Origin: Imbricaverruca yamaguchii
Lineage: Eukaryota > Arthropoda > Thecostraca > Neoverrucidae
Assembly (NCBI GenBank): GCA_034440575.1
Contig: JAOTOL010001560.1
Span: 248,001-312,000, forward strand
Reading direction: 5' to 3'
DNA length: 64,000 nt
Part shown: one piece after another, positions 16,701-38,629 of the stretch
Numbering within the stretch: position 1 is the stretch's first letter
How the letters are laid out: every line of letters starts with the position of its first letter
Translations under genes and position numbers: made by a program
The notes under the pieces: generated by a model
The model's input: the letters and a program-made list of their open reading frames with translations, nothing else
What the model was told of the DNA's origin: nothing
The model's database searches: none

Positions 16701-19700
16701 TATTTCGACCATTTCCGTAGTTTGCAGACAAATGTTAGGAGGAAGGAACATCCTAAAAATGGCATTGCCATGTTACCCAATTCTATGCGAGGCAGAGGAA
16801 TTGTATAGAAAGGATGGCATGGTGTTTGTGGAGGTCTGTGCTTGTGTGTCGTAACTTACGGAAGCGCTCTGACGTCATGTTGGTAATCCGTGCGTTTGTG
16901 TGCGCCAGTTTCCGGTTAATACGGCACGTCTCCTTCGTCGATTGTCCCGGCCACGACATCTTGATGGCCACCATGTTGAACGGAGCCGCCGTCATGGACG
17001 CCGCCTTCCTGCTGGTCGGTCAGTACTCTGTTCTACTGGCGCCCCCAGCTGGTCGGTCAGTGCTCTGTTCTGCTGGCGCCCCCATCTCCTTGCTGGTCGG
17101 TCAGTACTCTGTTGTACTGGCGCCCCCGCCTCCCTGCTGGTCGGTCAGTACTCTGTTCTGCTGGCGCCCCCATCTCCTTGTTGGTCGGTCAGTACTCTGT
17201 TGTACTGGCGCCCCTGCCTCCCTGCTGGTCGGTCAGTACTCTGTTCTGCTGGCGCCCCTGCCTCCCTGCTCGTAGGTCAGTATTCTGTTCTTCTCCCCCC
17301 CCCCCCCACCTTCCTGCTGGTCGGTTAGTGTTGTTATGTTAGCGCCTCCGTCTGAGCCATGCGTCCTGTAGGCCTATATTGCCTACAGCTGGAGTTCCAA
17401 TGTTCAAACTGTCCATGTTGCCCCCGTGGATGACACTTTCCTTTTGATTATCGTTATACCCCGATGCGGCGTCGGTTGCAATACATTCGCCTGTGAAAAG
17501 AATACACATTTTTATAAGGAATGCGGTCGAAGCCTAGTGTGCACTTCAGGCCAACTAAAATCACACAATAAAAATAGTTCTGCTTCCAGTCAACTGACTA
17601 AATTTATGCATTGAGATGCTCGGAAAATCTAGTGTCACCACGGAAAACGAGGTGGAGAGGCAAGTGCACGAGACGTTTTAATCTATGACCTCGGCGACGC
17701 AGTCGGCTGATGCGTCCGCTTCGAGTGTGGGGAGGTCCTTTGGTTAAGCCTGGCCCCAGGCAGACACTTCCTCCGCCAGCTCCCGCCCGGGAGGTGGCGG
17801 TAACTATGGGGTGTTCGCTGTGCCACTAGTGGTGGTGATCGGTGTGTGAACCGGCTGGTGACGGTTGGCATGTGGGCCAGGCCAGGTGATGATCGCTGTG
17901 TGAGCCAGGTGAGGTGATGATTGGTATGTGGGTTGAATGGTGGTGACTGGTTGGTGTGATGATTCCGCGTCTCTGCTCCACAGCTGGAAATGAGTCGTGT
18001 CCCCAGCCGCAGACGTCCGAACATCTGGCCGCCATCGAGATTATGAAGCTACGCCACATTCTCATACTCCAGAACAAGATCGACCTCGTCAAGGAGACCC
18101 AGGCTAAGGAGCAGTATGAGCAGATCCTCAAGTTTGTCCAAGGTTAGTGCTGGAAAATTAGCAGGTAGCAGAGTAGTGCGTGGGGGGGGGTTGGCAACAT
18201 TACTCCCCCATAATTAAAAGCAGGATATTGTGCTCACATTTTCCGGTACTCAGTTTTACAACTGCGTTTTCCCGACCATCCTGACTGCAGTCTATGGGTA
18301 TTGTACGTGTGATTAGTCTTTGAACCTGCGACCCGCGTGCATACTGGATTAGTGGTGCTTGGTGGTTTTGCCTCCTATATGTGTTAAAATACATAATTCA
18401 TGATCGCGTTTATAATTACCAGGATACCAACGCACGATAAGGTAACTAGGTCAAAGTAATCAGGTATTCCCGTTGTTTTATGACTGGCTTGCGACATGTT
18501 TGGTGATTCACGAAGACAGGGGCTCGAAGCCAAAACTGTCCATTGTTGATATTTACATTTTTTATTATCATAAGCATTTGTGCTAAATGACCTCGCAGTC
18601 GGCGCGCCCTTAACCCGCGCACGTCCTGGGGGGGGGGAGATATCTGCCCCCTCCGGTTTTTCCTCATTTTCCGCCAAACTAATCGTGTTAGCAAGGCCAA
18701 ATCTCCCATAGCTGTTCATTGGTCTTTTCCGCATATCCTCATACATTTTTAATACTGGGTCATCTCAGGTCAGGTCACCAGGTCAGGCGAAGTGACCCAG
18801 CTACACTCGGAGTTCTAGGTGGCATAACTTCCACAATAATTGGGCGATTTATTTCAAACTTATAGCATGTCATGATCTCATCAAGGACCATAATATGTAT
18901 ATCTGTTTTTTTCGCAGCATTGACCTTAGGTCAGGTCGCTGCCATGGCTTCCCCATTATAGGGCCATGGTAAAATATACAAATGTTTCCTGGCTACATAT
19001 TTGCGCTCGGAATGATCTCACAACGGTTGTGGCATGTAGATGGAAGCTATGCTCAATGTTACCGCTGACAATTTTGCTCAAGGTCTCTGAGGTCACCTGA
19101 GATCACTACACATTTATACGCATTACATCGCACTGCATTGAGATTGAAAGCTGAAATTACCGTCATTGTGCTTGTATCGTCAAGACGTGTCGATTGATAC
19201 ATTACATGACCACCTTGGGCCTTGACCTGAGTTCGTGACTTCATGACCTTGACCTGAGTTTTGGTTGACCTGGCCTTAAATTACACCGTCTATTGTCGGT
19301 AGCGCATTTCAAGGACTGTCGAATAGTGTTCGCCGTTTGTTTCTATCTGTTCCGGGCCCTGAGCTATGTGTCAATATCTGAGTTGCACCTGATCTGGTCG
19401 AATTTGACCTATGTATAATAACCCAGTAACCTGACTGTTGACCTGAGCGAAAAAATGAACGAAACACTTTCGATGGAGCCAGTCACCAGCTATCCAACGC
19501 CGTTTTCCGTCTGTCGCTAGCTAGCATAGTTCTGGAGATCTTAGGGGTACAGACATCCGCCCCCCCCCCCCCGGACATGCGAAGTTGGCACGGACCTCCG
19601 GACGTGCGAGTGTTAAGCCCAAATGGACATCAATCGATTATCAAAAGCATAAGATAATCTCGCTTAATTCCACGAAGTCCTATATCGAGCCTTGAAGCTA

Positions 19701-22700
19701 ATTTTAGCTGAATTATTTCACCTGATCTGGAGAACACTGTTTTTTGTTTTTATGTGCATTGACAATATTGACCTAAGCTAGAAATGGCGTTCGTTGTGAA
19801 TAGCGTTCGCAGGATGTTTACGATTACGTAATATAACATTATTTATTTTCCTTGATGATCTTCAGATTACTTTTTTTCTGAGTTAAATGACTGGGAAACA
19901 TCTTTGCATTCCTGTAAGCGCGATATGGCCGATTGGTTGGTTATTTGGGCTTAGGGGCGCATCGACTGCTTCGGTCATACAGCGCCCATCGCGATATAGC
20001 TGACGCCGACGGCGACCCGCAGGGACAGTGGCCGAGAGCGCACCCGTTATCCCCATCTCCGCCCAGCTCAAGTACAACATCGAGGTGATCTGCGAGTACA
20101 TCGTGAAGAAGATCCCGGTGCCGGTGCGCGACTTCATGTCGGCGCCGCGGCTCATCGTCATCCGGTCGTTCGACGTCAACAAGCCCGGCTGCGAGGTGGA
20201 CGACCTGAAAGGCGGCGTGGCCGGCGGCTCCATCCTGCGCGGCGTGCTCAAGGTGCGGCGGCCGACAGCCGCGCGGGTCGTGTGCTGCGGCTCGCCCGGC
20301 ACGTGTCTGTGCAGACACGTCACGTGTACGGGCAAACACATCACGTGTCCGGGCAGACTCGTCACGTGTCCGCAGTGATAAATTATTCGTGAAATGGGTG
20401 GAATATACCACTTTATAAATGTTCAATCGACATCCTGCTCCAAGAAGTATCGACATTCTGCTCCTTGAAACCTACATCATCAGCTCGAAATTGCGTCTGA
20501 GGCATCAAAAGCATTTTAAATGACACTGATTCCTTGGCAAATTTCTACATCCTACTGTGCCCGTTTCGACATCTCACACCTAACGAAAAACCAATGTTTT
20601 AACCCTGCGTGTCCGGATAGACACATATCGTGTCCGTCCAGACACATCACGTGTCCGGGCAGACATGTCACGTACGGGTACGTTATTCACGTGTTCGAGC
20701 TCGCATGTCACGTGCCCGATGAAGGGCCAGATATTTCAGGCATTGCTGGATGCGAGCTCTGGATGATAATAACAACCAGATATTCCTTTCGTTCACGCCG
20801 CTGTGTTGGCCCACGTGACCAAGCAACTGTGTGGCGACCGATCCAGTTCATTCGGTCGCCCAGACCGCAATGCGTTGCGGGGCGTATTTGTTCATTCGTC
20901 CTCCGGAGCGCCCAGAACGGTGCAGAATGTCCGGCGCTGGCATGAGCGGACCCGTCACGAGCGGGCGCACGCGCCGAGTGAGCCGACGCCGGCTGTCCGA
21001 CCTGACCTGACCTGACCTGGCTACGGCGCATCGACAGGTGGGCCAGGAGATCGAGGTGCGGCCGGGCATTGTGGAGAAGACGCAGGACGGGAAGCTCAGC
21101 TGCAGGCCCATCTTCTCTCGCATCCTCTCGCTGTTCGCCGAACAGAACGACCTGCAGTTCGCCGTGCCGGGTGGTCTCATCGGTAGGTGGCGCGTCCCGC
21201 ATTGTTCCGTCGATGTTTCCGTTGGGCTTCGTTTGTGTACACAGGGAGCATCGGCGTCGACTAACACTGGCAGTACTAGCTATTGTCATTGCAGATATTT
21301 GCATGAATAGGCGCGATGTGTAAATTTGATGAACGTCAAATTATGTGTGCATGTTGTTTTATGATTAGTGTGCTCCTTTGGCGGCTGGCCTTCGGCCGAT
21401 AGGTTAACGTCAGCTGTTGTCCGGCAGGAGTGGGGACCAAGATTGACCCGACCCTGTGCCGTGCCGACCGCATGGTGGGTCACGTGCTGGGTGCCGTCGG
21501 CGCGTTGCCGGACATCTTCACCGAGCTGGAAATCTCGCTGTTCCTGCTGCGCCGACTACTGGGCGTGCGCACTGAGGGCGACAAGAAGGGTGCCAGGGTA
21601 AGGCGTGATGGTCCTGACTGTAGTAAGGTGCCAGGGTAAGGCGTGGTGGTCCTGACTGTAGTAAGGTGCCAGGGTAAGGCGTGTTGGTCCTGGCTTAGTA
21701 AGGTGCCAGGGTAAGGCGTGGTGGTCCTGACTGTAGTAAGGTGCTAGGGTAAGGCATGGTAGTCCTGGCTGTAGTAAGGTGCCAGGGTAAGGCGTGGTGG
21801 TCCTGGCTGTAATAAGGTGCCAGAGTAAGGCGTGGTGGTCCTGGCTGTAGTAAGGTGCCAGGGTAAGGCATGGTGGTCCTAGCTGTAGTAAGGTGCCAGG
21901 GTAAGGTGTGGTGGTCCTGGCTGTAATAAGGTGCCAGAGTAAGGCGTGGTGGTCCTGGCTGTAGTAAGGTGCCAGGGTAAGGCGTGGTGGTCCTGGCTGT
22001 AGTAAGGTGCCAGGGTAAGGTGTGGTGGTCCTGGCTGTAATAAGGTGCCAGAGTAAGGCGTGGTGGTCCTGGCTGTAGTAAGGTGCCAGGGTAAGGCGTG
22101 GTGGTCCTGGCTGTAATAAGGTGCCAGGGTAAGGCATGGTGGTCCTAGCTGTAGTAAGGTGCCAGGGTAAGGTGTGGTGGTCCTGGCTGTAATAAGGTGC
22201 CAGAGTAAGGCGTGGTGGTCCTGGCTGTAGTAAGGTGCCAGGGTAAGGTGTGGTGGTCCTGGCTGTAGTAAGGTGCCAGGGTAAGGCGTGGTGGCCTGTG
22301 AATAAGGTGCGTTGTCAGGGTAAGGTGTGGTGGTCCTGGCTGTAGTACGGTGCCAGGGTAAGGTGTGGTGGTCCTGGCGGGTGGGCGCCAGGGTGAGGCA
22401 TAAGGATTTTGTGTGAAATTCGTGATGTGAGGGAGTGACTGGTATGTTGAGGTACGGCACACACGCGGGAAGCTTGGGTGAACTGACGTCGGCGATCTCG
22501 GCCGCCCAGGTGCAAAAGCTGACCAAGAACGAGGTGCTCATGGTGAACATCGGGTCCCTGTCGACCGGCTGCCGCGTGCTGGCCATCAAGGCCGATCTGG
22601 CCAAGATATCGCTCACGTCCCCCGTCTGCACCGAAGTCGGCGAGAAGATCGCCCTGTCGCGCCGCGTCGAGAAGCACTGGAGGTGAGTGGGAGGACGTCT

Positions 22701-23035
22701 GACTGCTGTATCTGCCGTGCCACTCACGCGTGGTCGGCGCAGTCCAGTCCGACTGCTGTGTGCATGCTGCCTGTCATGCCGTCAGGTTGACGCGCGTGAG
22801 GGTCTCATTGTGACGCAGGTGTGTAGGTCTGGATACTTCAAGTTGACGTGCGTGAGGGTCCGACTGTGAGGCAGGTGTGTAGATCTGGATACTTCAAGTT
22901 GACGTGCGTGAGGGTCCGACGGTGAGGCAGATGTGTAGGTCTTGAGATGTCTGACGTGTGCGTCTGCCGGTGTTTTGCAGACTGATCGGCTGGGGCGAGA
23001 TTCGGCGCGGAGTGACCGTCCGGCCGGTGGTGTAG
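10709..23035 (+). CDS. EIF2S3: Eukaryotic translation initiation factor 2 subunit gamma (eIF2-gamma), 11 coding exons
   Basis: GTPase subunit of the eIF2 complex, which carries initiator Met-tRNA to the 40S ribosome in the cytosol. Joining exons 10709-10753, 12985-13048, 13972-14082, 16250-16373, 16909-17018, 17984-18142, 20023-20252, 21038-21182, 21428-21597, 22510-22682 and 22981-23035 gives 1386 nt, i.e. 461 residues plus TAG, with all junctions GT-AG and in phase. Visible motifs: P-loop GHVAHGKS (40-47), switch I Thr70, DCPGH (126-130), NKID (182-185), SAQ (217-219), and a Cys-rich zinc-ribbon insertion (Cys83, 88, 94, 107, 112). Beta-barrel domains II and III follow, ending in a conserved [14 protein letters not shown] tail. 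Animal orthologues are about 460-475 residues, so the protein looks complete. The start Met lacks a few N-terminal residues found in relatives, so a small upstream coding exon is possible. Exon boundaries were read by eye from splice consensus and family conservation. Confidence 0.95.
11041..13680. other. CpG-depleted block at the 5' end of EIF2S3
   Basis: Reading each line I find one CG dinucleotide (near 11692) in about 2.64 kb, while TG and CA are abundant. The block covers most of intron 1, exon 2 and the start of intron 2, and ends abruptly at GGCGTCGACGACG near 13690. Flanking sequence is CpG-rich. This is the footprint expected of heavy cytosine methylation. Confidence 0.85.
12985..13048 (+). 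CDS. EIF2S3: eIF2-gamma coding exon 2 (residues 16-36)
   Basis: Encodes [20 protein letters not shown] and the following Val, then the first base of Gly37. '[14 protein letters not shown]' is a signature of eIF2-gamma just before the G domain. The acceptor TTTCAG is preceded by a T-rich tract; the donor is GTGAGT. The exon has no CpG, like the intron sequence around it. Confidence 0.93.
13972..14082 (+). CDS. EIF2S3: eIF2-gamma coding exon 3 (residues 37-73, P-loop and switch I)
   Basis: Carries the GTP-binding P-loop GHVAHGKST (40-48) and the switch I stretch RNITIKL with Thr70, the expected Mg-coordinating threonine. Acceptor GACAG, donor GTGAGA. The exon is rich in CpG and G/C-ending codons, a sharp contrast with exons 1 and 2. 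Confidence 0.95.
14684..14787 (+). repeat. Tandem duplication in EIF2S3 intron 3 (about 52 bp, 2 copies)
   Basis: TCAACTCTGTACGCAGGTCA through CACATAAATGT occurs twice head to tail with one difference (GCAGG versus GCAAG). Confidence 0.85.
14922..15396 (+). mobile_element. hAT-like MITE copy 1 in EIF2S3 intron 3
   Basis: Starts CAGGGTTAAAATAATGG and ends ATAATTTATCACTG, imperfect terminal inverted repeats. Flanked by CAACAGTA (14914-14921) and CAACAGCA (15397-15404), an 8-bp target duplication with one change, typical of hAT elements. It carries about 230 bp not found in copy 2. Confidence 0.8.
16105..16235 (+). repeat. Short tandem repeat before EIF2S3 exon 4 (about 42 bp, 3 diverged copies)
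   Basis: Three diverged units sharing GTGTGCGTTC(G/T)CAGC and GTGT(C/T)(C/T)ATT. The last copy is about 20 bp from the exon 4 acceptor. Confidence 0.65.
16250..16373 (+). CDS. EIF2S3: eIF2-gamma coding exon 4 (residues 74-114, zinc-ribbon insertion)
   Basis: Encodes [20 protein letters not shown] and a further Cys-rich stretch ending [11 protein letters not shown]. Cys83, Cys88, Cys94, Cys107 and Cys112 form the knuckle inserted in the G domain of eIF2-gamma. Acceptor CCCTTTCAG, donor GTAAGT; the last two bases (CA) combine with exon 5 to give His115. Confidence 0.93.
16909..17018 (+). CDS. EIF2S3: eIF2-gamma coding exon 5 (residues 115-151, switch II)
   Basis: Encodes the near-invariant [20 protein letters not shown] segment with the G3 motif DCPGH at 126-130. 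Acceptor GCGCCAG. The donor G|GTCAGTAC is the first of a tandem series: the exon end and donor are repeated about every 44 bp downstream (see the 17006-17335 array). The reading frame stays open through the array to about 17275. Confidence 0.94.
17006..17335 (+). repeat. Minisatellite seeded on the EIF2S3 exon 5 splice donor (about 44 bp, 7 extra copies)
   Basis: The exon end and donor CTGCTGGTCGGTCAGTAC recur near 17049, 17093, 17137, 17182, 17226, 17270 and 17318; the last two are mutated. Between them are GGCGCCCC and CTCC-rich segments ending in a pyrimidine run. Confidence 0.9.
17984..18142 (+). CDS. EIF2S3: eIF2-gamma coding exon 6 (residues 152-204, NKID)
   Basis: Encodes [20 protein letters not shown] followed by a stretch with NKID (182-185), the guanine-specificity motif, and the helix up to KFVQ. 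Acceptor CTGCTCCACAG, donor GTTAGT. Highly conserved across eukaryotes and archaeal aIF2-gamma. Confidence 0.95.
19945..19993 (-). repeat. Short dispersed repeat next to the EIF2S3 exon 7 acceptor
   Basis: GGGGCGCATCGACTGC and GGTCATACAGCGCCCAT match the inverted copy at 28765-28825 almost base for base. It ends about 30 bp before the exon 7 acceptor. Confidence 0.75.
20023..20252 (+). CDS. EIF2S3: eIF2-gamma coding exon 7 (residues 205-281, G5 motif to domain II)
   Basis: Encodes the SAQ motif (217-219) and the start of beta-barrel domain II ([20 protein letters not shown]). The exon ends in phase 0 at CTCAAG|GTGCGG. The acceptor (…GACCCGCAG) lacks a clear pyrimidine tract, and a dispersed repeat ends roughly 30 bp upstream of it. 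Confidence 0.94.
20285..20372 (+). repeat. 21-bp CACGTGTCCGG minisatellite, left part
   Basis: Four to five units of CACGTGT(C/A)CGGGCAGACAC in intron 7, interrupted by a MITE at 20373-20607 and continuing beyond it. Confidence 0.8.
20373..20607 (-). mobile_element. hAT-like MITE copy 2 inside the intron 7 minisatellite
   Basis: 235 bp, ends CAGTGATAAATTATT and …TTTTAACCCTG. Perfect 8-bp flank CGTGTCCG at 20365-20372 and 20608-20615 (the minisatellite itself contains this word, so the flank alone is weaker evidence). Internal sequence matches copy 1 in inverted orientation. Confidence 0.85.
20608..20700 (+). repeat. 21-bp CACGTGTCCGG minisatellite, right part
   Basis: Continuation of the intron 7 array beyond the MITE, with units such as CGTGTCCGTCCAGACACATC; degraded towards the right. 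Confidence 0.75.
21038..21182 (+). CDS. EIF2S3: eIF2-gamma coding exon 8 (residues 282-329, domain II)
   Basis: Encodes [20 protein letters not shown] and ends in AVPGGLI, the conserved domain II barrel. Acceptor TCGACAG, donor GTAGGT. The three-repeat ACCTG tract just upstream (about 21000-21018) may serve as the pyrimidine-containing region. Confidence 0.94.
21428..21597 (+). CDS. EIF2S3: eIF2-gamma coding exon 9 (residues 330-386, domain II-III)
   Basis: Encodes [20 protein letters not shown] through [12 protein letters not shown]. The exon ends GGTGCCAGG|GTAAGGCG in phase 0. This exon end with its donor is the seed of about 21 tandem 38-bp repeats in the following intron. Reading through the donor meets a stop at about 21639. 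Confidence 0.95.
21585..22385 (+). repeat. Minisatellite seeded on the EIF2S3 exon 9 splice donor (38 bp, about 21 copies)
   Basis: Each unit contains GGTGCCAGGGTAAGGCGTGG, i.e. the last nine exon bases and the donor, followed by about 18 bp of intron (…GGTCCTGGCTGTAGTAA). Variants change the last exon base (CCAGA|GTAAGG) but keep GTAAGG. The array occupies most of intron 9. Confidence 0.93.
22510..22682 (+). CDS. EIF2S3: eIF2-gamma coding exon 10 (residues 387-443, domain III)
   Basis: Encodes [20 protein letters not shown] and the [18 protein letters not shown] block, the most conserved part of domain III. Acceptor GCCGCCCAG, donor GTGAGT. The last two bases (AG) combine with exon 11 to give Arg444. 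Confidence 0.95.
22780..22950 (+). repeat. 57-bp tandem repeat in EIF2S3 intron 10 (3 copies)
   Basis: Three units sharing GTTGACG(T/C)GCGTGAGGGTC and AGGTGTGTAG(A/G)TCTGGATAC. Confidence 0.85.
22981..23035 (+). CDS. EIF2S3: eIF2-gamma coding exon 11 and stop (residues 444-461)
   Basis: Encodes [17 protein letters not shown] and TAG. Acceptor TGTTTTGCAG. The tail is shorter than in vertebrate or fly orthologues, which extend several residues past 'V(K/R)P'; such length variation is common at this end. Confidence 0.94.
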
Positions 23036-23141
23036 CGCGCCGCCGGCGGCCGTCCCGTGGTGCGGCCGCCCGCCAGCACCGCCCCCGGCGCTGTGCTGAG
23101 CCCGCCTTGTTAGGTACCGTTCGTGGTTCGCGAGACGTTCC

Positions 23142-23147
23142 AATAAA
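23142..23147 (+). promoter_or_regulatory. Polyadenylation signal AATAAA for EIF2S3
   Basis: A canonical AATAAA lies 107 bp after the EIF2S3 stop codon, giving a short, GC-rich 3' UTR. No other AATAAA lies between the stop and this point. Confidence 0.75.
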
Positions 23148-23967
23148 ACCGCTGCTGGACCGGGCGGCTGTCGTACGCCGCGTTGTCAGCCGGAGGTTCG
23201 TGGCCAGCGTCACACGGTCCGATCTTGAAGTCTGTACATAGTGTTTTCGCAGTGCGGACGAACACGTGACCTCTAAGACCTTCTCAGATACTGGAAGGCG
23301 TCCTCGATCCCCCAGCAATTCCAACATATTCACTTCTGCATTCATGGTTATGGTGGATTTCCGGTGAAGCTGCCAGGAGCTATTGGCGTTCGCAGTTTTG
23401 AGATATTGGTGACAATATAAAACGGTGCGATGAGATAAACTCCTGCAGAACATTTTTTCCCGTCGTAAACTCAGCCGTACGAGGTGGTGGTCGGGCTTAT
23501 TTTCCACTTCTCATGATTACATTCTTTTGCTCTGCTACTTTCACTAAGTTGAAACTTCGATCTTCATATGCTTTTTTTGGCCTGGCTGGAACGATATGTT
23601 ATATTACGCACCAGCCAGCATATGCTGCTGGAGTTTAAACAAGAATGCACCCACCATCATCTGCGTGGTGCAGATTGAGACGTGAAATTATTGAAGGTGT
23701 CTACTGAACAATTATGTTGGGGCTTGACGAAGCAACTATACTATTAGGTCCGACGCTTTCCCATGTGATCCAACAAATGATAAGGCTACTTTCTGAAGGC
23801 CGAATGACGTCTCTCCAGCACCCTAAAATGTTCACTATTATCCCATCCCCCTTGGAAACTATGACTCAGCCTGCAAGATATTGTAGCGGTCCAGCGGCAA
23901 AATTCGGTTACAATGCGGCCGATAGCGCCAACGTGCTGGCAACAGCGGTCTATGTAACACAACTGTT
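23148..23967. other. Intergenic 3' flank of EIF2S3
   Basis: Unique sequence without a recognised exon on either strand, between the poly(A) signal and SINE B copy 1. Confidence 0.5.
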
Positions 23968-23982
23968 GACGAGTTGGGAGCG

Positions 23983-24140
23983 GGGACGGGTGGTCTAGGG
24001 GTAAGTTGCCCGTCTCACAATCGAAAGATTATGGTTTCAAGCCTCGCCTGTCGCTACTCTTCGCCCGCAACCAATCGGCGTGAGAGATTGGCGACGCTAC
24101 ATGACTCAACGGTCGAGGTGTCGCAAAACCGATAACCACC
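23983..24140 (+). mobile_element. SINE family B copy 1
   Basis: tRNA-like head GTGGTCTAGGGGTAAGTTG with box B-like GGTTTCAAGCC, then a body with TTGGCGACGCTACATGACTC. Flanked by GACGAGTTGGGAGCG (23968-23982) and GACGAGTTGGAAGCG (24141-24155), a 15-bp target duplication with one change. Confidence 0.88.
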
Positions 24141-24834
24141 GACGAGTTGGAAGCGCCGCAAAAAAACCTGCTTACTGACCACATGAACCGTCGATTACCG
24201 AACATCGAACCCAGGTATTTGCTGCCAACGTTCAGTGCTATCAGCCGGGTAGATAAAAATCCCCCCCCCCCCCATCGCATCCAGTGACCAGCTATCAGTA
24301 TCTACCCCAACCGACTTCGCCACGCGTAACTGTCAACCAACAGGCCGTGTTGGAACCAGAGCTCGTCACCGCCCGACACCTAGTACTACTGACCACGGCG
24401 CGCGTGTAGAAACCATACCAGATACGCACACCAACTCCGCGAGGAGTCCACCGGATATATTGGAAATGCAGCCGTATCGATACACGAAACAACACACAAG
24501 AAGCAAACCACTAGTGAGCGAGTATCATTTCACTCGGTGCTTGCTACCGACAAAACCAATCAGCCACCCGAAAATCACGATCAAACGGTGGCCAACACAT
24601 CGACGTATGATTGCTCCTAATTGCCCCAGTGTGCGTTACACCCATCAATACACGTGCTACATCCATCGCGATGGCTCGACCGTCCACGCCCGGTATTTGC
24701 CAGCTCCCTGGAATTGCTTGTACGTGGGAAAATCTCCTGCCTGGGAGTCGACACCCTTTTCGCCCGAGCCACCCGCAGCCACACACACCATCAGCGGTCA
24801 CGGCAGTCCAGCGGGCAGTCCAGTCGGTCGGAGC

Positions 24835-25050
24835 GGACACGAACCACAGGCTGGCCCGGATACCGAACACAGATCACGGACTGGCCCGGATACCGAACAC
24901 AGATCATAGACTGGTCCGGACATCGAACGCAGATTATAGACTGGCCCGGATACCAAACACAGATCATGGACTGACCCGGATACCGAACACAGATCATAGT
25001 CTGGTCCGGATACCGAACACAGATTATAGACTGGGTCGGGCACCGAACAG
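24835..25050 (+). repeat. 29-bp minisatellite (about 7 copies)
   Basis: Units of GACTGGCCCGGATACCGAAC plus ACAGATCAT, diverging to the right. It lies between the two gene 3' ends. Confidence 0.85.
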
Positions 25051-25194
25051 TCCGCAGACTGGACCGGGGACCGAACAGTTCGCAGACCGGGCCTGGCAGA
25101 TTGAAGCCAGACTGGGACACACCATGGACTGCCGGACACCGACCACGCATTCGACCGGACCGAAACCGGACGGGAACAGACCGTGGACCGGGTC

Positions 25195-25490
25195 GGACAC
25201 TGACCGCCGACCTTACGCCAGTCCGGACACGGGCCACCGACCACAGACTTTACACCAGTCCGGACACGGGCCGACCACAGACCTTACACCAGTCCGGACA
25301 CGGGCCGACCACAGACCTTACACCAGTCCGGACACGGGCCGACCACAGACCTTACACCAGTCCGGACACGGGCCGACCACAGACCTTACACCAGTCCGGA
25401 CACGGGCCGACCACAGACCTTACACCAGTCCGGACACGGGCCGACCACAGACCTTACACCAGTCCGGACACGGGCCGACCACAGACCGTT
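25195..25490 (+). repeat. 34-bp minisatellite (about 9 copies)
   Basis: Nearly identical units of CCAGTCCGGACACGGGCCGA plus CCACAGACCTTACA, suggesting recent expansion. Confidence 0.9.
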
Positions 25491-26409
25491 CCGCACACCG
25501 ACAACGCAGCGCTGGTGACTGACTGTGGGATGACCGCGACGTTATCCACAAGGCAACCATGTTATTAATGCCACATCGCTACCCGCTGTCACTGTCACGG
25601 TGTACACTTGGTAACTGCCACTCTGCCTGTGTCTAACATGAAACCAATCGTTACCGAGCCGAAATAATCCCGTTGGCGGGCATCTGTAACACACCGGTAT
25701 CACAAATTCGCAATGGTAACGCCATAAGTGGTGCAAGGTGAAGCCACCATTTGGCACCAATCTCTCGCATGCTGACATTATTTACTAGGATCTGGATGGA
25801 AATGAAGCTGCTTCAAGGCTTACCGAAGAAAATATAAATAGTAGTTTTGCTAATTAAACGTGCGCCTGCTTCACAAATTCACACATTTCCCTGTGGTTGA
25901 AATTTAGGTTGCGTGGAAGCTGTGGTCGAGCTTGGAAAGTCTGCGCATTTAACTTCTCAAAGAACGTTTATGCAGTTGGTTCGCCACTAAGCCCCCAATA
26001 ACGACATGAAATTTACGTTCGAATGGGAGGGGTGGGGCACTTGTGAGAGAACCACCGAACGATGAGGTCGTAAAAAGGTTACTCGGGCTATTTTATGCAA
26101 GGACCAAATGACTGGGTGCGCAGGAATAGCACTGGATACCACTGAAATGCACAGTTCCATGGTCGGTGTAGGAGAGTTCCATTCCCACATGCAGACTGAG
26201 ATGTATTGCATTCACCATTCTGCCATGACCGTCCACAGGCCCGACAACGGGCGCCGCCTCGATGGACGAGGGAGAACGCGTCTCCCCAAACTTCGCGAAA
26301 TTTAGCTATACACCTATGACGTTGCATGAACAAAATGGACCTGCAAATTCTCTCGTTTACAATCTCCACAGAAATTCCCTGGCGACGCCCATGGCCTATG
26401 GCAGTTGGC

Positions 26410-27655
26410 GCCACAGGCGACCCCCACTGAATGGAGACAGCAGCCCACCTCACCGGACCGACGGCAGATGGCGCCGCATAGTCTCCACTGAGTGGAGAGA
26501 CAGCAGCCCACCTCACTGGGCCGACGACAGATGGCGCCACGGACGACCCCCACTGAGTGGAGGGACAGCAGCCCACCTCACCGGACCCACGGCAGATGGC
26601 GCCGCATAGTCTCCACTGAGTGGAGAGACAGCAGCCCACCTCACCGGACCCACGGCAGATGGCGCCGCATAGTCTCCACTGAGTGGAGGGACAGCAGCCC
26701 ACCTCGCTGGGCCGACGGCAGATGGCGCCGCATAGTCTCCACTGAGTGGAGGGACATCAGCCCACCTCACCGGACCCACGGCAGACAGCCCCCACTGAGT
26801 AGAGAGGGACAGCAGCCCACCTCACCGGACCCACGGCAGATGGCGCCGCATAGTCTCCACTGAGTGGAGAGACAGCAGCCCACCTCGCCGGGCCGACGGC
26901 AGATGGCGCCGCATAGTCTCCACTGAGTGGAGAGACAGCAGCCCACCTCACTGGGCCGACGACAGATGGCGCCACGGACGACCCCCACTGAGTGGAGGGA
27001 CAGCAGCCCACCTCACCGGACCCACGGCAGATGGCGCCGCATAGTCTCCACTGAGTGGAGAGACAGCAGCCCACCTCGCCGGGCCGACGGCAGATGGCGC
27101 CGCATAGTCTCCACTGAGTGGAGGGACAGCAGCCCACCTCGCTGGGCCGACGGCAGATGGCGCCGCATAGTCTCCACTGAGTGGAGGGACATCAGCCCAC
27201 CTCACCGGACCCACGGCAGACAGCCCCCACTGAGTAGAGAGGGACAGCAGCCCACCTCACTGGGCCGACGGCAGATGGCGCCGCATAGTCTCCACTGAGT
27301 GGAGGGACAGCAGCCCACCTCACCGGACCCACGGCAGATGGCGCCGCATAGTCTCCACTGAGTGGAGAGGGACAGCAGCCCACCTCGCCGGGCCCCACGG
27401 CAGACAGCCCCCACTGAGTAGAGAGGGACAGCAGCCCGCCTCACTGGGCCGACGGCAGATGGCGCCACGGACGACCCCCACTGAGTGGAGGGACAGCAGC
27501 CCACCTCACTGGGCCGACGGCAGATGGCGCCGCATAGTCTCCACTGAGTGGAGAGGGACAGCAGCCCACCTCGCCGGGCCGACGGCAGATGGCGCCGCAT
27601 AGTCTCCACTGAGTGGAGGGACAGCAGCCCACCTCGCCGGACCTCACGGCAGACA
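26410..27655 (+). repeat. About 62-bp minisatellite abutting the HACD3 3' end (about 20 copies, higher-order repeat)
   Basis: Units contain GACAGCAGCCCACCTC, GGGCCGACGGCAGATGGCG and CATAGTCTCCACTGAGTGGA. Subtypes (ACGGACGACCCCC versus CATAGTCTCC) recur with a 435-bp (7-unit) period: the block from about 26492 is repeated from about 26927. The array begins about 35 bp beyond the HACD3 stop. Confidence 0.92.
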
Positions 27656-27689
27656 GGCCCCACCCGGCGGAGACGGCAGGCTCGACAGC

Positions 27690-27775
27690 CTACCCTTCCT
27701 TCAGCTTGCTGGCGGAGTCTGGCCCCAGCACCTTGTTCCGTTGCCGGTGCATGTGCCGCATCACCAGGCACAGCC
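27690..27775 (-). CDS. HACD3: HACD3 coding exon 10 and stop (residues 346-373)
   Basis: Encodes LCLVMRHMHRQRNKVLGPDS then ASKLKEG and TAG. The basic RHMHRQR motif corresponds to the 'NFRHLYKQRRRR' tail of vertebrate HACD3. Acceptor GCCCCCAG. A 62-bp minisatellite starts about 35 bp after the stop and no AATAAA is visible on this strand before or inside it, so the 3' end is undefined. Confidence 0.88.
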
Positions 27776-30700
27776 CTGGGGGCGACGACAGATCGGTCAC
27801 CGTCGGCTTCAGCTACCCGTGCGAGTAGTCGCACAGTCAGCCGTACACCGTACAGTTGTTCCGTCACACCGGATGTGGATGGAGATACTTGGGAATGGCT
27901 ATGTGATATTCAGCTCTGGAGCCGAAGCATTGCAAAAGTTAGAAGTAGCATTTTTCAAAAACGATTTACCACCTTTGGATGCGTATAAAATGCCACTGTG
28001 CATGCGCTTTTTATAATCATAGCAACGAACCACTTGTGATCATTTTTTTTTAAACAGCATATAATTTAGCTCGTGTATGCTTTTATTTTCTATCAAGAAT
28101 ATAAACTTTGGTATAATCCAGAGATGACAAGAAAAAACGGGAGTTGGCGAGTACGTCGGAGAAAACTGCCCGTCCGTGCCCAAGGGTTGTCCAATACCCA
28201 GGGAATCGTACGAGGGACAAAGTTACATCTGATCGTTCCAGAAGGCGACGATAGCGAATTTTTCGCTTCTATTCCGTTTGGGGCATAGATTCCGAAAGTA
28301 TTGCCCAAGCCGTGTGCAATATCAGATGCTGGCACGTGCCTTCACATTTGGGCAGCGCGTAAATACCATCCGGTGTCTACTTTTGCATCCCGTAGGGGCT
28401 GTCGAAAATGCTGAGCGGATTGTCAGAAAGGTAGTCCGGCCGTCAGATAACCGGATGTCCTTGTGGAGCATATCATTTACCAACCTCAGACCCACGGCCT
28501 ATCATCACCACAAAACATGTGTGGAGCAGTATGAGCAAAGAGCTTACAAGACGCCTTTGTTTGTTGGATGATTCACGACGCACTTTACGCCGCACATTCA
28601 TAGCTAATGGCGCTGCCCTCGTTGTTTCGCTGGTGTGCCGCTGGATTGGGAAATATCATACGCAGTGCGAGTGTTGGACCTGGGACCTTTGGTACCCAGA
28701 TATCAACACCTTGATCACTTGCCATCCCCGCCCCTTTGCAAGACACCTATGGTATCGAAAGGAACCCATGGGCGCTGTATGACCAACGCAGTCGATGCGC
28801 CCCTGAGCCAAAATAACCAACCATCGAGAGGAACCACAATCCCACAGGACACTGGTAAACGTCGGTTGATTCAACAGCCCAGAGAAGTCAACCCGGTGTG
28901 ACGTGCTTACTCTGACACTTACCCGGCAAGAAGGCGATCAGCAAGTACCACTGGATGAAGGTGGGGAAGTGGAAGGCGAAGTTGTACGCGTTCGGCAGCG
29001 ACACACTGAACTTTCCCGTCTCTTCAAAGTACGGCATCGCCCTGCCAAAAGTAATATTAAGATAATGATTGTTCGCTTACTCAGCGATTATCGATTATAA
29101 TGATTATCGCTTACTTAGCGATATGTAGACAAAAAATTCGCACATCCCTAGCTCACACCATCATCGAAAGCAGTTATTAAATGCTTGCAATTTCGTTGTA
29201 GCTTGGATAAACAGCTTCTCGAAGCTTTTACGGCGCGGTTGCATGCTAACGCTATGCTATGACCTCGTGTAAATCGGCCTGAGGTGAAAAGCAAGTTAAA
29301 AGCATGGCTTCGAATTTACACCTGGTCAACGCTTGAACAGCCCTGCTATACAAACGCAGGCGAGCGCACCATTTTTGGCCACGATTACAACATTGCAAGT
29401 GTACACCCTAACTACCACACTCCGCCCAGTACGGAATCTAGCTCGGGCAGCAGCAGCGGCGGCGCGGCTGCATATCGCCAATCTGGGGTGGAAGTCAGCA
29501 GACCGTACGGCGCAGGGAGGAAATATTGCACGTAGTAATTGTGGCTGCGATATGAGGCATCAGCAGGGCAACTATTTCATACGTGAGCCGAGCATCAATC
29601 GACTTCACGACACAACACCCAGCGAATTCCAACCTATCGCTGCTCAAGGTTCGGCACTTTACATTTGTCACGCCAGCGCATGACCGCCGCTTTTGCCTGC
29701 GGAGACAAAACGCACACTACTCCCGCATAAACATCGCGAGCAATACACACCACACCAGCTGCAGAGCGTCAGTCTTGCCATGCTTGCATTCCTCCCTGAA
29801 ACTACGGATCCCATGGAAACGCTATTCAAGCTTCACTAGAATACGTGGCGATGTGGCGAAGACTGGGATGCGAACAGTACACAATGACACCATCGCACGG
29901 AATTTGAAGAGCCATTCCCTTCCTGTGGCAGAACTCACCCTGCCCACCGTCCCGCTCCTAACGATCCCTGCCTGGCTGCCTTCCGGCTGAAGGCCCGACT
30001 CTATCCACTGCCTCGCCTCCAGCGATCCCCTCGTGGCTGCCCTCCTGCGGCAGATCCCACCTACTGTCCCAACAACGCTTCCCTGACTGCCCGGCACCAC
30101 CATTCCCATCGCCAGCGCCGTGCGCCGACGTTCTGTGCACGGCTCGCGCGCGCGCTGTGGTGCCCACCTGATGTACAGCACGCCCTCGGTGATAAACCCG
30201 GCCGGGTAGAGCGGGATCCACAGCGTGTACCGCAGCCAGGTCAGGACGCCCAGATTGCGCCGCACCAGGCGCATCGTGTAGTACGGGTACCTGAAGCGGA
30301 GCACGTGGTGCACTACAGAACTGGGTACCCGACGTCGAGACTTATTGTAATGCGAGTGCTTGGGATGGAAAGGTTGCTTAATACTGGGACCTCAGAACAA
30401 TGTGGACTTGTAGCTATTTCAGCTCTAATCATTGTTACGTGGAAACATGATGGCAAAGCATGGCGTAATATTAATTGCATACACAGTAGCATAAAACCAG
30501 TGATTGAGCTGAACATACCACATAACATATTTACAAACATCGAACTCCTGGAATATATGCATGCACATCTATGACAGGCGTGTTTATTGGATAAGAAATG
30601 TCAACGTATAAGGTTGTATCCAATGACCCTAAACATCGCATATACGCGTACCTAAGGTAGATAATTGCGAAAATTGGATATCCCAGGTCGAACACGTGGC

Positions 30701-33700
30701 ACTGATGATCGAAGTTAAACGAGTGCACTCTACTGGCACCGAAGGTCGCCACATTGTGTGATATGGTCAGCCGTCTAAAGACGGCGATGATAACAAATCC
30801 TGGATAGTCATTACCGCATCCCACGCACCCTTGCCAACATAAGAGACGACGACTATCACCGTCTACCACGGAGCATCGCGAAGATGGAACGCATCGAATT
30901 TGCATCAGATCCTAGTAAAGTTTGTTTGTTTATTGGTTGGTTCACGACACACTTTATGCACTTTCACGGCTAATGGCGCCGCCCATACTGTTTCGCCGGT
31001 GGGCTGCGGGATTGGGAAATGTCCTGAGTGGCGCTAGAGTCGAACCCGGGACCTTTGGTACCCATAGCCCGACACCTTAACCACTCGGCCATTCCCCCCC
31101 TAGTAAAGTTTGTCAACAATTGCTGTCTCCAACTTTGCTCTGCGTCGTACAACTGCAGCTTGATGAGCACATCCTATATTATCTCTATATATAGCAAAGC
31201 AGTGAGATATCTGCAGAGAGCTCACTGTGTTACGCCGCTGCACGAGCCGCACGTGCTCGATCACCACGGACGCGGTCGACTGATGCTGGGGCTTGTGCAC
31301 GCGGTGCACGGCTCACACTGACTTGACAATCTCCGCCAGACTCCAGCACTGACCTGACAATCTCCACCAGACTCCAGCACTGACCTGACAATCTCCACCA
31401 CACTCCAGCACTGACCTGACAATCTTCACCAAACTCCAGCACTGACCTGGCAATCTCCACCAGACTCCAGCACTGACCTGACAATCTCCACCAGACTCCA
31501 GCACTGGCCTGACAATCTCAACCAGACTCCAGCACTGATCTGACAATCTCCACCAGACTCCAGCACTGACCTGACAATCTCCACCAGACTCCAGCACTGA
31601 CCTGACAATCTCCACCAGACTCCAGCACTGACCTGACAATCTCCACCAGACTCCAGCACTGACATGACAATCTCCACCAGACTCCAGCACTGACCTGACA
31701 ATCTCCACCAGACTCCAGCACTGACCTGACAATCTCCACCAGACTCCAGCACTGACCTGACAATCTCCACCAGACTCCAGCACTGACTTGACAATCTCCA
31801 CCAGACTCCAGCACTGACCTGACAATCTCCACCAGACTCCAGCACTGACCTGACAATCTCCACCAGACTCCAGCACTGACCTGACAATCTCCACCAGACT
31901 CCAGCACTGACCTGACAATCTCCACCAGACTCCAGCACTGACCTGACAATCTCCACCAGACTCCAGCATTGACCTGACAATCTCCACCAGACTCCAGCAC
32001 TGACCTGACAATCTCCACCAGACTCCAGCACTGACCTGACAATCTCCACCAGACTCCAGCACTGACCTGACAATCTCCACCAGACTCCAGCATTGACCTG
32101 ACAATCTCCACCAGACTCCAGCACTGACCTAACAATCTCCACCAGACTCCAGCACTGACCTAACAATCTCCACCAGACTCCAGCACTGACCTGACAATCT
32201 CCACCAGACTCCAGCACTGACCTAACAATCTCCACCAGACTCCAGCACTGACCTGACGATCTCCACCAGACTCCAGATGACCAGCAGGTAGAACACGGCC
32301 GGCTTGTTGTGCATCCTGGGCTCGGCGTCCAGCACGGCGAACAGGATCAGGTTGCGGCCGCTGACCTAACGACCAGCGGACGTTCGGTGGGGTGTCGCCG
32401 CCAGGTCACCAGGGCACGAGCGGTCCAGGGGTGAGTTACCCGTCTCACAATCGAAAGATCGTGGGTTCGAGTCTAACCTGTCGCTACCCGGCTTCCGCGA
32501 TCGATCGGCGTAAGATTGGCGACGCTACATGACTCGATGGCCGACGTGTCGTAAAAACCCAACAACCGACCAAGGTCGGCAGGCTGTCCAAGATTACTCA
32601 CCACCAGATCTCCAGTTAATCATTAGATTCGGTAGCGCAGAACTCGCCGGCGTATCCTATACAAGATCAGACGACATACTATTTCCGCTTACCCTGATCA
32701 CCAGACCAGGCGGCATACTATTTCCGCTTACCCTGATCACCAGACCAGGCGGCAGACCACTAGAGCAGTAGAGGAAGCAGACGAACACTTCCCAGTGTAC
32801 CATAACCACCATATCAAGCAGTAGAGTGCTTCAGTTTACCTTAGGTACTGTACCAGGCGACGCATTAATACGGGATGGGTGCAAAATGACCAACGCTGTC
32901 GACATGCTCTAAAACACAAATCCACCACTACCACCACTATCACCGGCATGCCGGTATGCCATAACGGTAGGCCAGACGGCTGGATACTTCTGGTCCACCC
33001 TCACCACTCGACAAGATGACGGCTATGCTAGGTACTGGATCAGACAGTAGGGCTCTCGGCGGTGACCCACACGGTCTTCCCACCAGCTGACGAGGCCCGA
33101 GGACCGGCGATCGGGGCCAGCCGCGGCGCACCTGCATCAGAGGCTCCAGTACTCCGCCCCGGGTCATGCCCAGCAGCGGGTGGAGCACCTCCAGCACCTG
33201 CAGACCCTGCACCATCTTGATGTTGGTGCCGGCCGTGTCGTACGCCCTCGTCATGGAGTCTGCGGCACACACGGAGCAACCACCAGCACCTGAACACAAC
33301 GGAGCAACAGACGGCAGTCGACTGATGCGGCGGGCATCGCACGGTCTCAGCCGAAAAAAAGGCGCGTATCCACCGACACCAAGGCGCAAAGCTGGGGCTT
33401 TGGAGCGCATCGATGAAAATTGGTGCTGCCGAGGAGCATCATAGTGAGGAATTAACACCAAAGTAGAAGCAGCGGCATTATAAGTTATACCGCGACGGAC
33501 CAATTAAGTTGCGATGTGCAATGGCGCACTTATGCACCTTAGAGTACCTACCACCCGCCGATAGATGTCCTGGCGCCACTATTCACATGCGGTACCTCAC
33601 CCAGGTGAGATGCAAGAGAACTGAGCGAGATACTGAAGGCGACCATTTGAACGTGGCTTACCTTCTCCCTCAAGATAATAGCGGAACGCTAGTTTGCCCA

Positions 33701-36700
33701 GGATGACGACGAAACCCAGCAGCTGCCACAGGTTGTACATGATCAGGTAGCTCTCCCGGAAATTCTCAACTGGAACATGTGTTTTACATGATCACTTAGC
33801 GTAGTACTCTGAGAAGCTATCCACTTTGAAACAAACAGTAAATGACTACGTAATTATCTGGAAATTAGCTCCTGCAACAAACAAAAAATTTGATATGCAT
33901 CGCAATTATGAACTGATAAACTTAAATATTTCAAGCGTCTATTGGTACGCAGGCAAACAAACCTCCATAAGCATCACTATTTAGAATGAAGACTACACCC
34001 GCATCACACATCTACAGCACCATACCAAACCGATTATATCATCGGATCACATTCATACATCACATCCAACGCCACCCCTGCCACCACACGTCCTCATACC
34101 ACGACCTGATCGTTACATCACATCCAACGCCACCCCTGCCACCACCACACGTCCTCATACCACGACCTGATCGTTACATCACATCCAACGCCACCCCTGC
34201 CACCACCACACGTCCTCATACCACGACCTGATCGTTACATCACATCCAACGCCACCCCTGCCACCACCACACGGCCGCATACCACGACCTGATCATTACA
34301 TCACATCCAACGCCACCCCTGCCACCACCACACGTCCTCATACCACGACCTGATCGTTACATCACATCCAACGCCACCCCTGCCACCACACGTCCTCATA
34401 CCACGACCTGATCGTTACATCACATCCAACGCCACCCCTGCCACCACCACACGTCCTCATACCACGACCTGATCGTTACATCACATCCAACGCCACCCCT
34501 GCCACCACAGCACGTCCTCATACCACGACCTGATCGTTACATCACATCCAACGCCACCCCTGCCACCACAGCACGTCCTCATACCACGACCTGATCGTCA
34601 CATCACATCCAACGCCACCCCTGCCACCACAGCACGTCCTCATACCACGACCTGATCGTCACTCCAACGCCACCCCTGCCACCACAGCACGTCCTCATAC
34701 CACGACCTGATCGTCACTCCAACGCCACCCCTGCCACCACCACACGTCCTCATACCACGACCTGATCGTTACATCACATCCAACGCCACCCCTGCCACCA
34801 CCACACGTCCTCATACCACGACCTGATCGTTACATCACATCCAACGCCACCCCTGCCACCACAGCACGTCCTCATACCACGACCTGATCGCTACATCACA
34901 TCCAACGCCACCCCTGCCACCACACGTCCTCATACCACGACCTGATCGTTACATCACATCCAACGCCACCCCTGCCACCACCACACGTCCTCATACCACG
35001 ACCTGATCGTCACTCCAACGCCACCCCTGCCACCACAGCACGTCCTCATACCACGACCTGATCGTAACATGACATCCTCCAGCGCCGGCCGCCATTTTCT
35101 GCGACTTGCCATCGCTCCCGCTGCCCCGCTGAATGGGGCGCTGTGTTCACGTCTCTGCCGCTGGAAGGGGTGTGATGGAGGGGCGGGTAGTCGGCCCCCT
35201 TCTGACCGGGGTGTGGGTGAGTTGTGCTCACGTCTCCGCCGCTGGAAGGGGAGGGATGGAGGGGCGGGTAGTCGGCCCCCTTCTGACCGGGGTGTGGGTG
35301 AGTTGTGCTCACGTCTCCGCCGCTGGAAGGGGAGGGATGGAGGGGCGGGTAGTCGGCCCCCTGCTGACCGGGGTGTGGGTGTGTTGTGTTCACGTCTCCG
35401 CCGCTGGGAGGGGAAGGTTGGAGGGGCGGGTAGTCGGCCCCCTGGTGACCGGGGTGTGGGTGGGTGTGCTGGGCTCACGTCTCCGCCGCTGGAAGGGGAG
35501 GGGTGGAGGGGCTGGTGTTCGGCCCCCTGCTGACCGGGGTGTGGATGGGTGTGCTGGGCTCACGTCTCCGCCGCTGGAAGGGGAGGGGTGGAGGGGCGGG
35601 TGTTCGGCCCCCTGCTGACCAGGGTGTGTGGGCTCACGTCTCCGCCGCTGGAATGGCTGCCCCGGCGGGAAGTCGCCGCCTTGTTGCAGCAGCTGGTCGT
35701 AGTCGGTCGACATGCCACCGCTGTCCTCCTCGTCGTCATCACTCTCGGAGCGCCACCGGTCAAAGTCCACCTGAGGCAGGTCCTCACGGCGTTTAGTCGG
35801 ACTACGGCCGCACGTCTCAGGCATGTTCCTCAAGTGGTGTGGGCCATCAGATATCCACCTCGGAAGGTGAGTCATCAAGTCTGTACTTCATGTCGCGTGG
35901 GTCCTCAGGTGACGGGCTCTGAGGTATGGTAGGTGTCGGTGTAGGTAGGTGGCGTGGGTTCTCAAGTCTGCATCCCAGGTCTTAGGTTCATACCTCAGGT
36001 GGTGTAGAAGAGAAGAAGAACCTTGGGTTCTTTTACGACGCATTCAACCGCTAGGTCATATATATAGGTCGCGGTTGGAATCGGTAAATGTTGTCGGTCA
36101 TGAAATTTGAACCCACAATCTAGCGGTCAAGTCCGACGCTCTACCAACTGAGCTACCCCCCCTCAGGTGGCGTGTACCATGAGACATGTGCCTCGGAAGG
36201 TAATAGTTAGCAGGCCCGTACCTCAGGCAGTGCGTGCTCTCATGCCATAGACAATGTAATACTAAGAATAAGATGCCAGAGTCATCCTCATTATCCAAAT
36301 ATTGCGATGCTTAAAAAAAAATACAATGCAATTCTAGCCCGAATGGTCTTGTAGGACCAGAGTCGCAACAGCTACGCTAGGCTCATCCCCGCGCACAAAG
36401 CCAGGAGCTACGAACCAATCGGGGACTGGCATACCGTCAGTAAAATACAAACTGAAACTAAGCGTATCGTCAGTACCCTGACAACGATACGCTGCTTAAG
36501 CTCATTCTGAGGCGTATGGGTCTCGCCAGGTTTTCACATGTCGTCAGTCGGTTGCGAATTGGCAGGAAACCCGGGGGGCTATCGCTTTAGTTGACATATG
36601 AACAGCATTGCCGACTGACAGACCGTCAATATCGCCCCGCTGTCAATGACTGACAGAAGGTCAGCACTGAACTGGACGGTGTGGCATAGACACGGCATCT

Positions 36701-38629
36701 GCCATGCCACACGTAGTCTGTAGTCTGTCCACACGTAGTCTGTCCACACGTAGTCTGTAGTCTGTCCACGCGTAGTCTGTAGTCTGTCCACACGTAGTCT
36801 GTAGTCTGTCCACAAGTAGTCTGTAGTCTGTCCACACGTAGTCTGTAGTCTGTCCACACGTAGTCTGTAGTCTGTCCACACGTAGTATGTAGTCTGATCA
36901 CACGTGGTCTGTGTCTGTCCACACGTGGTCTGTAGTCTGTCCACACGTAGTCTGTCCACGTGGTCTGTAGTCTGTCCACACGTAGTCTGATCACACGTAG
37001 TCTGTAGTCTGTCACACGTAGTCTGTCCACACGTAGTCTGTAGTCTGTCACACGTAGTCTGTAGTTGTCCACACGTAGTCTTACACGTAGTCTGTAGTCT
37101 GTCCACACGTAGTCTGTCCACACGTGGTCTGTAGTCTGTCCACACGTAGTCTGATCACACGTAGTCTGTAGTCTGTCCACACGTAGTCTGTAGTCTGTCC
37201 ACACGTAGTCTGTAGTCTGTCCACACGTAGTCTGTAGTCTGATCACACGTGGTCTGTAGTCTGTCCACACGTAGTCTGATCACACGTAGTCTGTAGTCTG
37301 TCCACACGTAGTCTGTCCACACGTAGTCTGTAGTCTGTCCACGCGTAGTCTGTAGTCTGTCCACACGTAGTCTGTAGTCTGATCACACGTGGTCTGTAGT
37401 CTGTCCACACGTAGTCTGATCACACGTAGTCTGTAGTCTGTCCACACGTAGTCTGTAGTCTGTCCACACGTAGTCTGTAGTCTGTCCACACGTAGTCTGT
37501 CCACACGTGGTCTGTAGTCTGTCCACACGTAGTCTGTAGTCTGATCACACGTGGTCTGTAGTCTGTCCACACGTAGTCTGATCACACGTAGTCTGTAGTC
37601 TGATCACACGTGGTCTGTAGTCTGTCCACACGTAGTCTGTCCACACGTAGTCTGTAGTCTGATCACACGTGGTCTGTAGTCTGATCACACGTAGTCTGAT
37701 CACACGTAGTCTGTAGTCTGTCCACACGTAGTCTGTCCACACGTAGTCTGTAGTCTGTCCACGCGTAGTCTGTAGTCTGTCCACACGTAGTCTGTAGTCT
37801 GTCCACAAGTAGTCTGTAGTCTGTCCACACGTAGTCTGTAGTCTGTCCACACGTAGTCTGTAGTCTGATCACACGTGGTCTGTAGTCTGTCCACACGTAG
37901 TCTGATCACACGTAGTCTGTAGTCTGTCCACACGTAGTCTGTAGTCTGTCCACACGTAGTCTGTAGTCTGTCCACACGTAGTCTGTAGTCTGTCCACACG
38001 TAGTCTGTAGTCTGATCACACGTGGTCTGTAGTCTGTCCACACGTAGTCTGATCACACGTAGTCTGTAGTCTGTCCACACGTAGTCTGTAGTCTGTCCAC
38101 ACGTAGTCTGTAGTCTGTCCACACGTAGTCTGTCCACACGTGGTCTGTAGTCTGTCCACACGTAGTCTGTAGTCTGATCACACGTGGTCTGTAGTCTGTC
38201 CACACGTAGTCTGATCACACGTGGTCTGTAGTCTGTCCACACGTAGTCTGTAGTCTGTCCACACGTAGTCACATGTAGTCTGTCCAACTTACCCGCAGCC
38301 AGTGAAGTTTGATTTTGTCCCGCTGTACCTGAGGCCAGCAGCCGTCCTCCTCCTTGTTCAGTGTGATCTGGACGCAGCGGTCTCCGACGCCGTATATCAC
38401 ATCCTGCCGCCAGACACGGGGTCACTGGGCGTCGCCTCTCGCTCGACATGCTGCAGCAACACCACACCCAGTCGCAGGCTGTCTCACGACACTGCACAAC
38501 ACAACACCATACTACCACCTGGTGCAGCGTAGCATAGCATCAGCTCCCGAAGGTCACTAACGAACACAGGTATAAATGTGTTTATACTCGCTCGCACGCA
38601 CGCACGCACGCACGCACGCAGATATATAT

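Follow-up and report, generated by a model that had tools for sequence, protein, structure and literature searches.

The 64,000-nucleotide stretch examined here (contig JAOTOL010001560.1, positions 248,001 to 312,000; hereafter the window) comes from the barnacle Imbricaverruca yamaguchii, whose assembly comprises 767 Mb in 1430 contigs. It contains two unrelated genes, EIF2S3 and HACD3, in which minisatellite arrays are built on exon–intron junctions. EIF2S3 lies on the plus strand with modelled exons from 12985 to 23033, and HACD3 lies on the minus strand, from 38403 down to a stop codon at 27692. Every listed intron of both exon models has GT-AG ends. The joined eIF2gamma protein, of 424 aa, gives a gapless full-length alignment with human eIF2S3. 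HACD3 has the PTPLA domain and its best named matches are the barnacle proteins of Pollicipes pollicipes (71%) and Amphibalanus amphitrite (68%); its exon 7 aligns without gaps to two named barnacle proteins. These gapless alignments of conserved protein, in eIF2gamma and HACD3 exon 7, indicate that the first array copy is the real exon end, and they fix the splice positions. The end of HACD3 exon 4 falls in a poorly conserved stretch, and its predicted position is less certain.

Arrays in the window and their periods were located with Tandem Repeats Finder (TRF). A preliminary description of this DNA had reported four donor-spanning arrays, at EIF2S3 exons 5 and 9 and HACD3 exons 4 and 7, and all four are present, with TRF periods of 44, 38, 81 and 31 bp and with units that include the exon end and the 5' splice site (Table 1). 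All four start inside the exon end and extend into the intron only. The EIF2S3 exon 5 array has TRF rows of 44 bp from 17040 and 132 bp from 17001 and a spacing of 37 bp between copies 1 and 2. In EIF2S3 and HACD3 exon 7 the codons contributed by the exon are conserved in comparison with human or other barnacles, which shows that the array was derived from the exon and not the reverse. Such a layout, in which copy 1 sits at the exon and all others in the intron, is the automatic outcome of any tandem duplication across a donor. The array reported just after the donor of HACD3 exon 3 was also recovered, 6 bp past that donor; its unit is without exon sequence, and no tandem copies of junction-spanning sequence occur at that junction. 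In the window as a whole, a junction-spanning 20-mer with tandem copies was found at 4 of 16 donors and at none of 18 acceptors. The proposed link to intron growth held up as well, as repeats form much of the affected introns: between 33 and 83% of the 20-mers in the four donor-array introns have nearby copies. Minisatellites occupy 22% of the window (34 merged arrays), compared with 13% of 270 kb of other loci in the same genome, overlaps counted.

The terminal stretch of HACD3 exon 4 (35638-35770, minus strand) is about six residues longer than in the two other barnacles. The end of this exon resembles the array unit, and the exon end may have shifted together with the array. Reading the HACD3 exon 4 array as in-frame coding read-through was rejected, as a stop codon occurs about three units in.

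The window had been chosen for its pattern, and therefore an independent sample of junctions was taken outside it, from exon matches of three gene families, chaperonin (66 matches), myosin head (72) and adaptin (37). The exon rows used were 56/66, 52/72 and 30/37, respectively. Sixty-six introns resolved at both ends, together with junctions resolved at a single end, gave 96 donors and 99 acceptors. Exon pairs were left out if their profile gap exceeded 16 or their overlap 40 positions, and 11 of the 77 pairs tried did not resolve; one of these, on contig C912, has an acceptor-side 52-bp array of three copies, which would add an acceptor case. Single-end junctions below the splice-score cut-off were left out. 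Single-end calling was calibrated on the paired junctions, where it recovered 43/49 donors and 46/49 acceptors, so a few positions are probably wrong. For two single-end donors, C1012:105686 and C1272:99510, the matches lay 1020 and 1337 bp away (chance; a neighbouring similar exon), and both were taken out before the count. A junction was counted as spanned when an ungapped segment with at least 5 nt on each side and a score of at least 16 recurred within 800 bp.

Of the junctions surveyed in this way, 19/195 were spanned, or roughly one in ten. Spanned donors numbered 11 of 96, on 10 contigs and with copies downstream only, and spanned acceptors 8 of 99, on 6 contigs and with copies upstream only; several surveyed junctions share a gene, and these counts are not fully independent. 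The preliminary description had proposed that junction amplification is recurrent and seeded on donors, none having been seen on an acceptor. The survey upholds recurrence in unrelated genes, and the absence of acceptor arrays holds for the window and not for the rest of the genome. The rates at donors and acceptors outside the window did not differ significantly in this small sample (Fisher P = 0.48), and donor specificity was rejected as a strong claim.

Table 1. Junction arrays and the exons that carry them in the window, and arrays at junctions surveyed elsewhere in the genome
Feature	Position	Strand	Description
EIF2S3 exon 5	16909..17018	+	donor GT 17019-17020; exon model and protein alignment
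EIF2S3 exon 5 array	17001..17291	+	44-bp unit: last 18 nt of exon, GTCAGT donor, intron; ~6-8 copies
EIF2S3 exon 9	21428..21597	+	donor GT 21598-21599; exon model and protein alignment
EIF2S3 exon 9 array	21589..22378	+	38-bp unit: last 9 nt of exon, 29 nt of intron (GTAAGG donor); ~21 copies
HACD3 exon 3	38293..38403	-	donor GT 38292-38291; exon model and protein alignment
HACD3 exon 3 array	36707..38286	-	22/15-bp compound; begins 6 bp past donor; unit without exon sequence
HACD3 exon 4	35638..35770	-	donor GT 35637-35636; exon model and protein alignment
HACD3 exon 4 array	35142..35653	-	81-bp unit: at least 16 nt of exon end, GTGAGC donor, intron; 6 copies
HACD3 exon 7	32253..32365	-	donor GT 32252-32251; exon model and protein alignment
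HACD3 exon 7 array	31316..32276	-	31-bp unit: last 24 nt of exon, 7 nt of intron (GTCAGTG); 31 copies
Donor array	C1012:116956		68-bp unit, 8 copies
Donor array	C1307:909178		39-bp unit
Donor array	C1314:1271508		32-bp unit
Donor duplication	C217:40685		96-bp, two near-identical copies
Acceptor array	C1012:109997		76 bp; counterpart on C89
Acceptor array	C1333:1206389		41 bp; several copies
Acceptor array	C1420:2630478		several copies
Acceptor array	C1379:2072357		
Acceptor array	C1273:569249		only 5 exonic nt

Copy number at these junctions is variable. In the donor array of one CCT gene, a 68-bp unit occurs about 8 times on C1012, while on C89 a 62-bp unit occurs at least 25 times and the array reaches the end of the stretch examined. 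Elsewhere, 1617 bp of the two contigs align with 93% identity. From an identity of 90-93%, C1012 and C89 probably carry alleles of one locus, although recent paralogues are possible. The youngest case is the two-copy duplication at C217:40685, in which TGTGCGTG, read by eye, is found at both outer breakpoints. This single case fits duplication via short homology, and slippage or repair at short homologies would be the birth step of the arrays.

Tandem arrays across exon–intron boundaries are known from amphioxus, where they are called mirages. According to the parts of the literature available to us, they occur in Adh3 and the globin genes BflGb6 and BflGb9 (PMC3087553) and in troponin C and PGBD5 (PMC3902484). 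They lie on the 5' or the 3' boundary with units of about 10 to 160 bp, splicing is reported to be undisturbed, and intron gain has been proposed (PMC3087553, PMC3902484). In BflGb6 the haplotypes differ in copy number, with 6 and 3 units (PMC3087553, PMC3902484). The barnacle arrays are similar in that their units span a real exon–intron boundary, in the window and in the surveyed genes alike. Both types of boundary are duplicated in the barnacle genome, though the window has donor arrays only. Copy number also differs between what are probably haplotypes, judged by identity, at one CCT locus. Differences from the portions of the amphioxus reports consulted are the phylum, the array length (as many as about 31 copies in the window; 25 or more at the CCT gene) and a rate measured over 195 junctions. 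The amphioxus papers report undisturbed splicing; for the barnacle, the gapless protein alignments are indirect evidence that splicing may proceed normally.

Our preferred explanation, to which we give a probability of roughly 0.7, is that the barnacle arrays are minisatellites of the mirage type, produced by frequent tandem duplication that favours G+C and tolerated at junctions since the outermost splice site remains functional. A junction would by chance be included in a segment of tens of bp that is duplicated in tandem and then expands by exchange between the copies. Such duplication would be frequent across the non-coding DNA of the barnacle and would strongly favour G+C-rich sequence, which is richest beside exons. 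When a donor is duplicated, the first copy would be the true exon end and the extra copies would lie on the intron side; when an acceptor is duplicated, the last copy would be the true one. Junction duplications would be tolerated provided that splicing keeps to the outermost site, and as a result exons would truncate the arrays and introns would grow. Use of the outermost site is suggested by the gapless protein alignments.

The dependence on base composition was seen in a background sample, for which the test was looser than that used for junctions (score 14, within 1500 bp). At 1453 non-exonic positions, copies were found downstream only in 2.8% and upstream only in 3.7%. An exon-internal control of 1248 positions gave 13 downstream-only (1.0%) and 24 upstream-only (1.9%) cases, with 38 in all, which indicates that about 1-2% of matches per side occur without junctions. 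With both directions added, the rate of array edges rose with local G+C from 1% (below 40% G+C) to 3% (40-50%), 7.5% (50-60%) and 11-12% (above 60%), and the mean G+C at junctions is about 60%. Raw repeat coverage (15% of non-exonic positions elsewhere and 32% in the window introns) was set aside as a null in favour of the edge rate, because arrays do not grow by invading flanks.

Several results weigh against tolerance and base composition as the whole explanation. In the window the difference between donors and acceptors reached Fisher P = 0.04, though the window had been picked for its pattern. When the G+C-matched background positions were limited to those over 100 bp away from exon matches, 3.9 spanned donors were expected against the 11 seen (2.8-fold, Poisson P = 0.002) and 4.3 acceptors against the 8 seen (1.9-fold, Poisson P = 0.07). 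Matching to all non-exonic positions gave expectations of 4.3 donors (P = 0.005) and 4.7 acceptors (P = 0.10). Within the 60-70% G+C bin, the share of positions with edges fell with distance from exons: 16-18% up to 100 bp away, 12-16% between 100 and 400 bp and 5-9% between 400 and 1500 bp. If junction arrays were simply tolerated, their rate would be no higher than the background, and an extra factor is needed, for example a genuine effect of the junction, or a higher age of the DNA beside exons than of intron interiors, which may account for part of the excess that is left. The strong excess at donors that the preliminary description had set as a test of its idea is present in a modest form relative to G+C-matched intron positions, and is not significant relative to acceptors, which show a similar trend.

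A donor-specific cause is neither needed nor supported by these data, and a hot spot at both intron ends is possible. The broadest version of that idea is tentative and somewhat doubtful: that in this lineage both ends of introns are genuine hot spots of tandem duplication beyond base composition, that about one intron in five has a junction-seeded array at one end or the other, and that these arrays are a major driver of intron growth and now and then create new splice positions. The chief rival to our explanation, which we consider unlikely, is that duplication is directed to junctions at both intron ends because splicing factors, pausing or chromatin at transcribed edges favour breaks or template switching. 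The excess that persists after G+C matching and the edge gradient inside the 60-70% G+C bin both argue for it, as does the distribution of one-sided edges, which reach 8-14% within 0-30 bp of junctions and only 0-4% at 150 bp or more. However, edge frequency stays roughly level over about the first 75 bp of intron at either end, and no sharp peak marks either splice site. On the donor side the maximum, 11.5%, falls on the splice site, with 8% at +15 bp and 10% at +30 bp close behind, and on the acceptor side it is 14% at 30 bp inside the intron; on the exon side edges drop to zero by 60 bp. Exon-adjacent sequence is probably older than the repeat-filled intron interiors, which would give the same profile, and the samples are small.

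The preliminary description had favoured a process specific to donors, such as U1 binding, R-loops or breaks there. We regard such a process as quite improbable, even though the window contains donor arrays only and the donor rate is also the higher one outside it. The difference is not significant when window and survey are pooled (15/112 donors and 8/117 acceptors, P = 0.12), as it is not in the survey itself, and acceptor arrays of multiple copies exist at C1333:1206389, at C1420:2630478 and in the C89 counterpart of C1012:109997. The U1 and R-loop ideas gain no support from the units, since the sense-strand G/C counts of three window units (11/15, 17/6 and 13/4) show no common skew.

The arrays might instead be retained because they are useful, for instance if their decoy donors slowed or tuned splicing. 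The GT is intact in 4/4 decoy donors of one array, in 18/18 gapless copies at EIF2S3 exon 9 and in 28/30 copies after the exon at HACD3 exon 7, and among the copies examined in both EIF2S3 arrays divergence is zero at donor positions +1 to +6, compared with unit means of 0.068 and 0.048. In the longest array, at HACD3 exon 7, the GT diverges at least as much as the unit (0.033 compared with a unit mean of 0.017). The copies share ancestry, so we read no selection into the invariance of the donors, and homogenisation makes such invariance weak evidence in any case. Together with the widely different copy numbers in the two assembled versions of the CCT gene, this makes a function very improbable. 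That the arrays are artefacts of assembly is hardly credible, for although arrays are places where assemblers err, the same CCT seed is found on two contigs with different unit variants and the array copies of the window bear distinct mutations.

Minisatellites of the mirage type, as we interpret the barnacle arrays, have partial counterparts elsewhere. In humans, a minisatellite in IFI6 reportedly supplies several splice donors, and it resembles the barnacle arrays in having units that carry splice donors. It concerns a single human gene in which several of the donors are said to be used. Internal tandem repeats at exon–intron boundaries have also been surveyed in human segmental duplications (PMC2812944). 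As far as the accessible text of that study goes, they too are of minisatellite size and affect gene structure and intron formation, but they are tied to recent paralogues, while the barnacle arrays are in conserved housekeeping genes (PMC2812944). Intron gain by tandem duplication has been described (PMC4974935; Rogers' model as cited in PMC3087553) and, in the portions consulted, likewise involves duplicated segments with splice signals; in the barnacle, existing introns lengthen and no new intron position was seen. Among the titles and the beginnings of abstracts listed by literature searches there was no report of junction arrays in barnacles or other crustaceans, and the word 'tandem' is absent from the main text, as far as available, of two barnacle genome papers (PMC8270832, PMC8917513). 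The kind of array is already known; what appears to be new is its presence in a barnacle, the length of the donor arrays and a measured rate.

In the literature available to us, mirages have so far been described from a handful of amphioxus genes. With about one in ten sampled barnacle junctions affected, from two-copy beginnings to 31-copy arrays, the birth, growth and tolerance of junction duplications become directly testable, as does the lengthening and origin of introns through tandem duplication of splice-site segments. The barnacle junction arrays may offer a live view of intron growth. They also raise a question for splicing, namely how one donor is chosen among up to 31 near-identical ones.

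Among the surveyed myosin-head loci, C1272:95309-99684 (minus strand) holds three adjoining copies of one exon (profile ~376-439), resembling the alternative exons of a muscle myosin gene. In the window, none of 8 further open reading frames matched Pfam above the cut-off. ARAGORN found no tRNA genes there, and minus-strand stretches at about 36090-36160 and 31040-31110 look by eye like short interspersed elements derived from tRNA. Three other repeats were noted in the window. At 32664-32754 (minus strand), a 39-bp unit is repeated 2.3 times in a HACD3 intron with a donor-like CAGGGTAAGC inside, and no model exon ends there. At 16106-16221, three copies of a 39-bp repeat end 28 bp before the EIF2S3 exon 4 acceptor (16250) without spanning it. 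At 26424-27653, a 63-bp array with a higher-order period of 435 bp lies beyond the HACD3 stop codon, in the 3' UTR or the sequence downstream of it, with its start some 30-40 bp from that codon.

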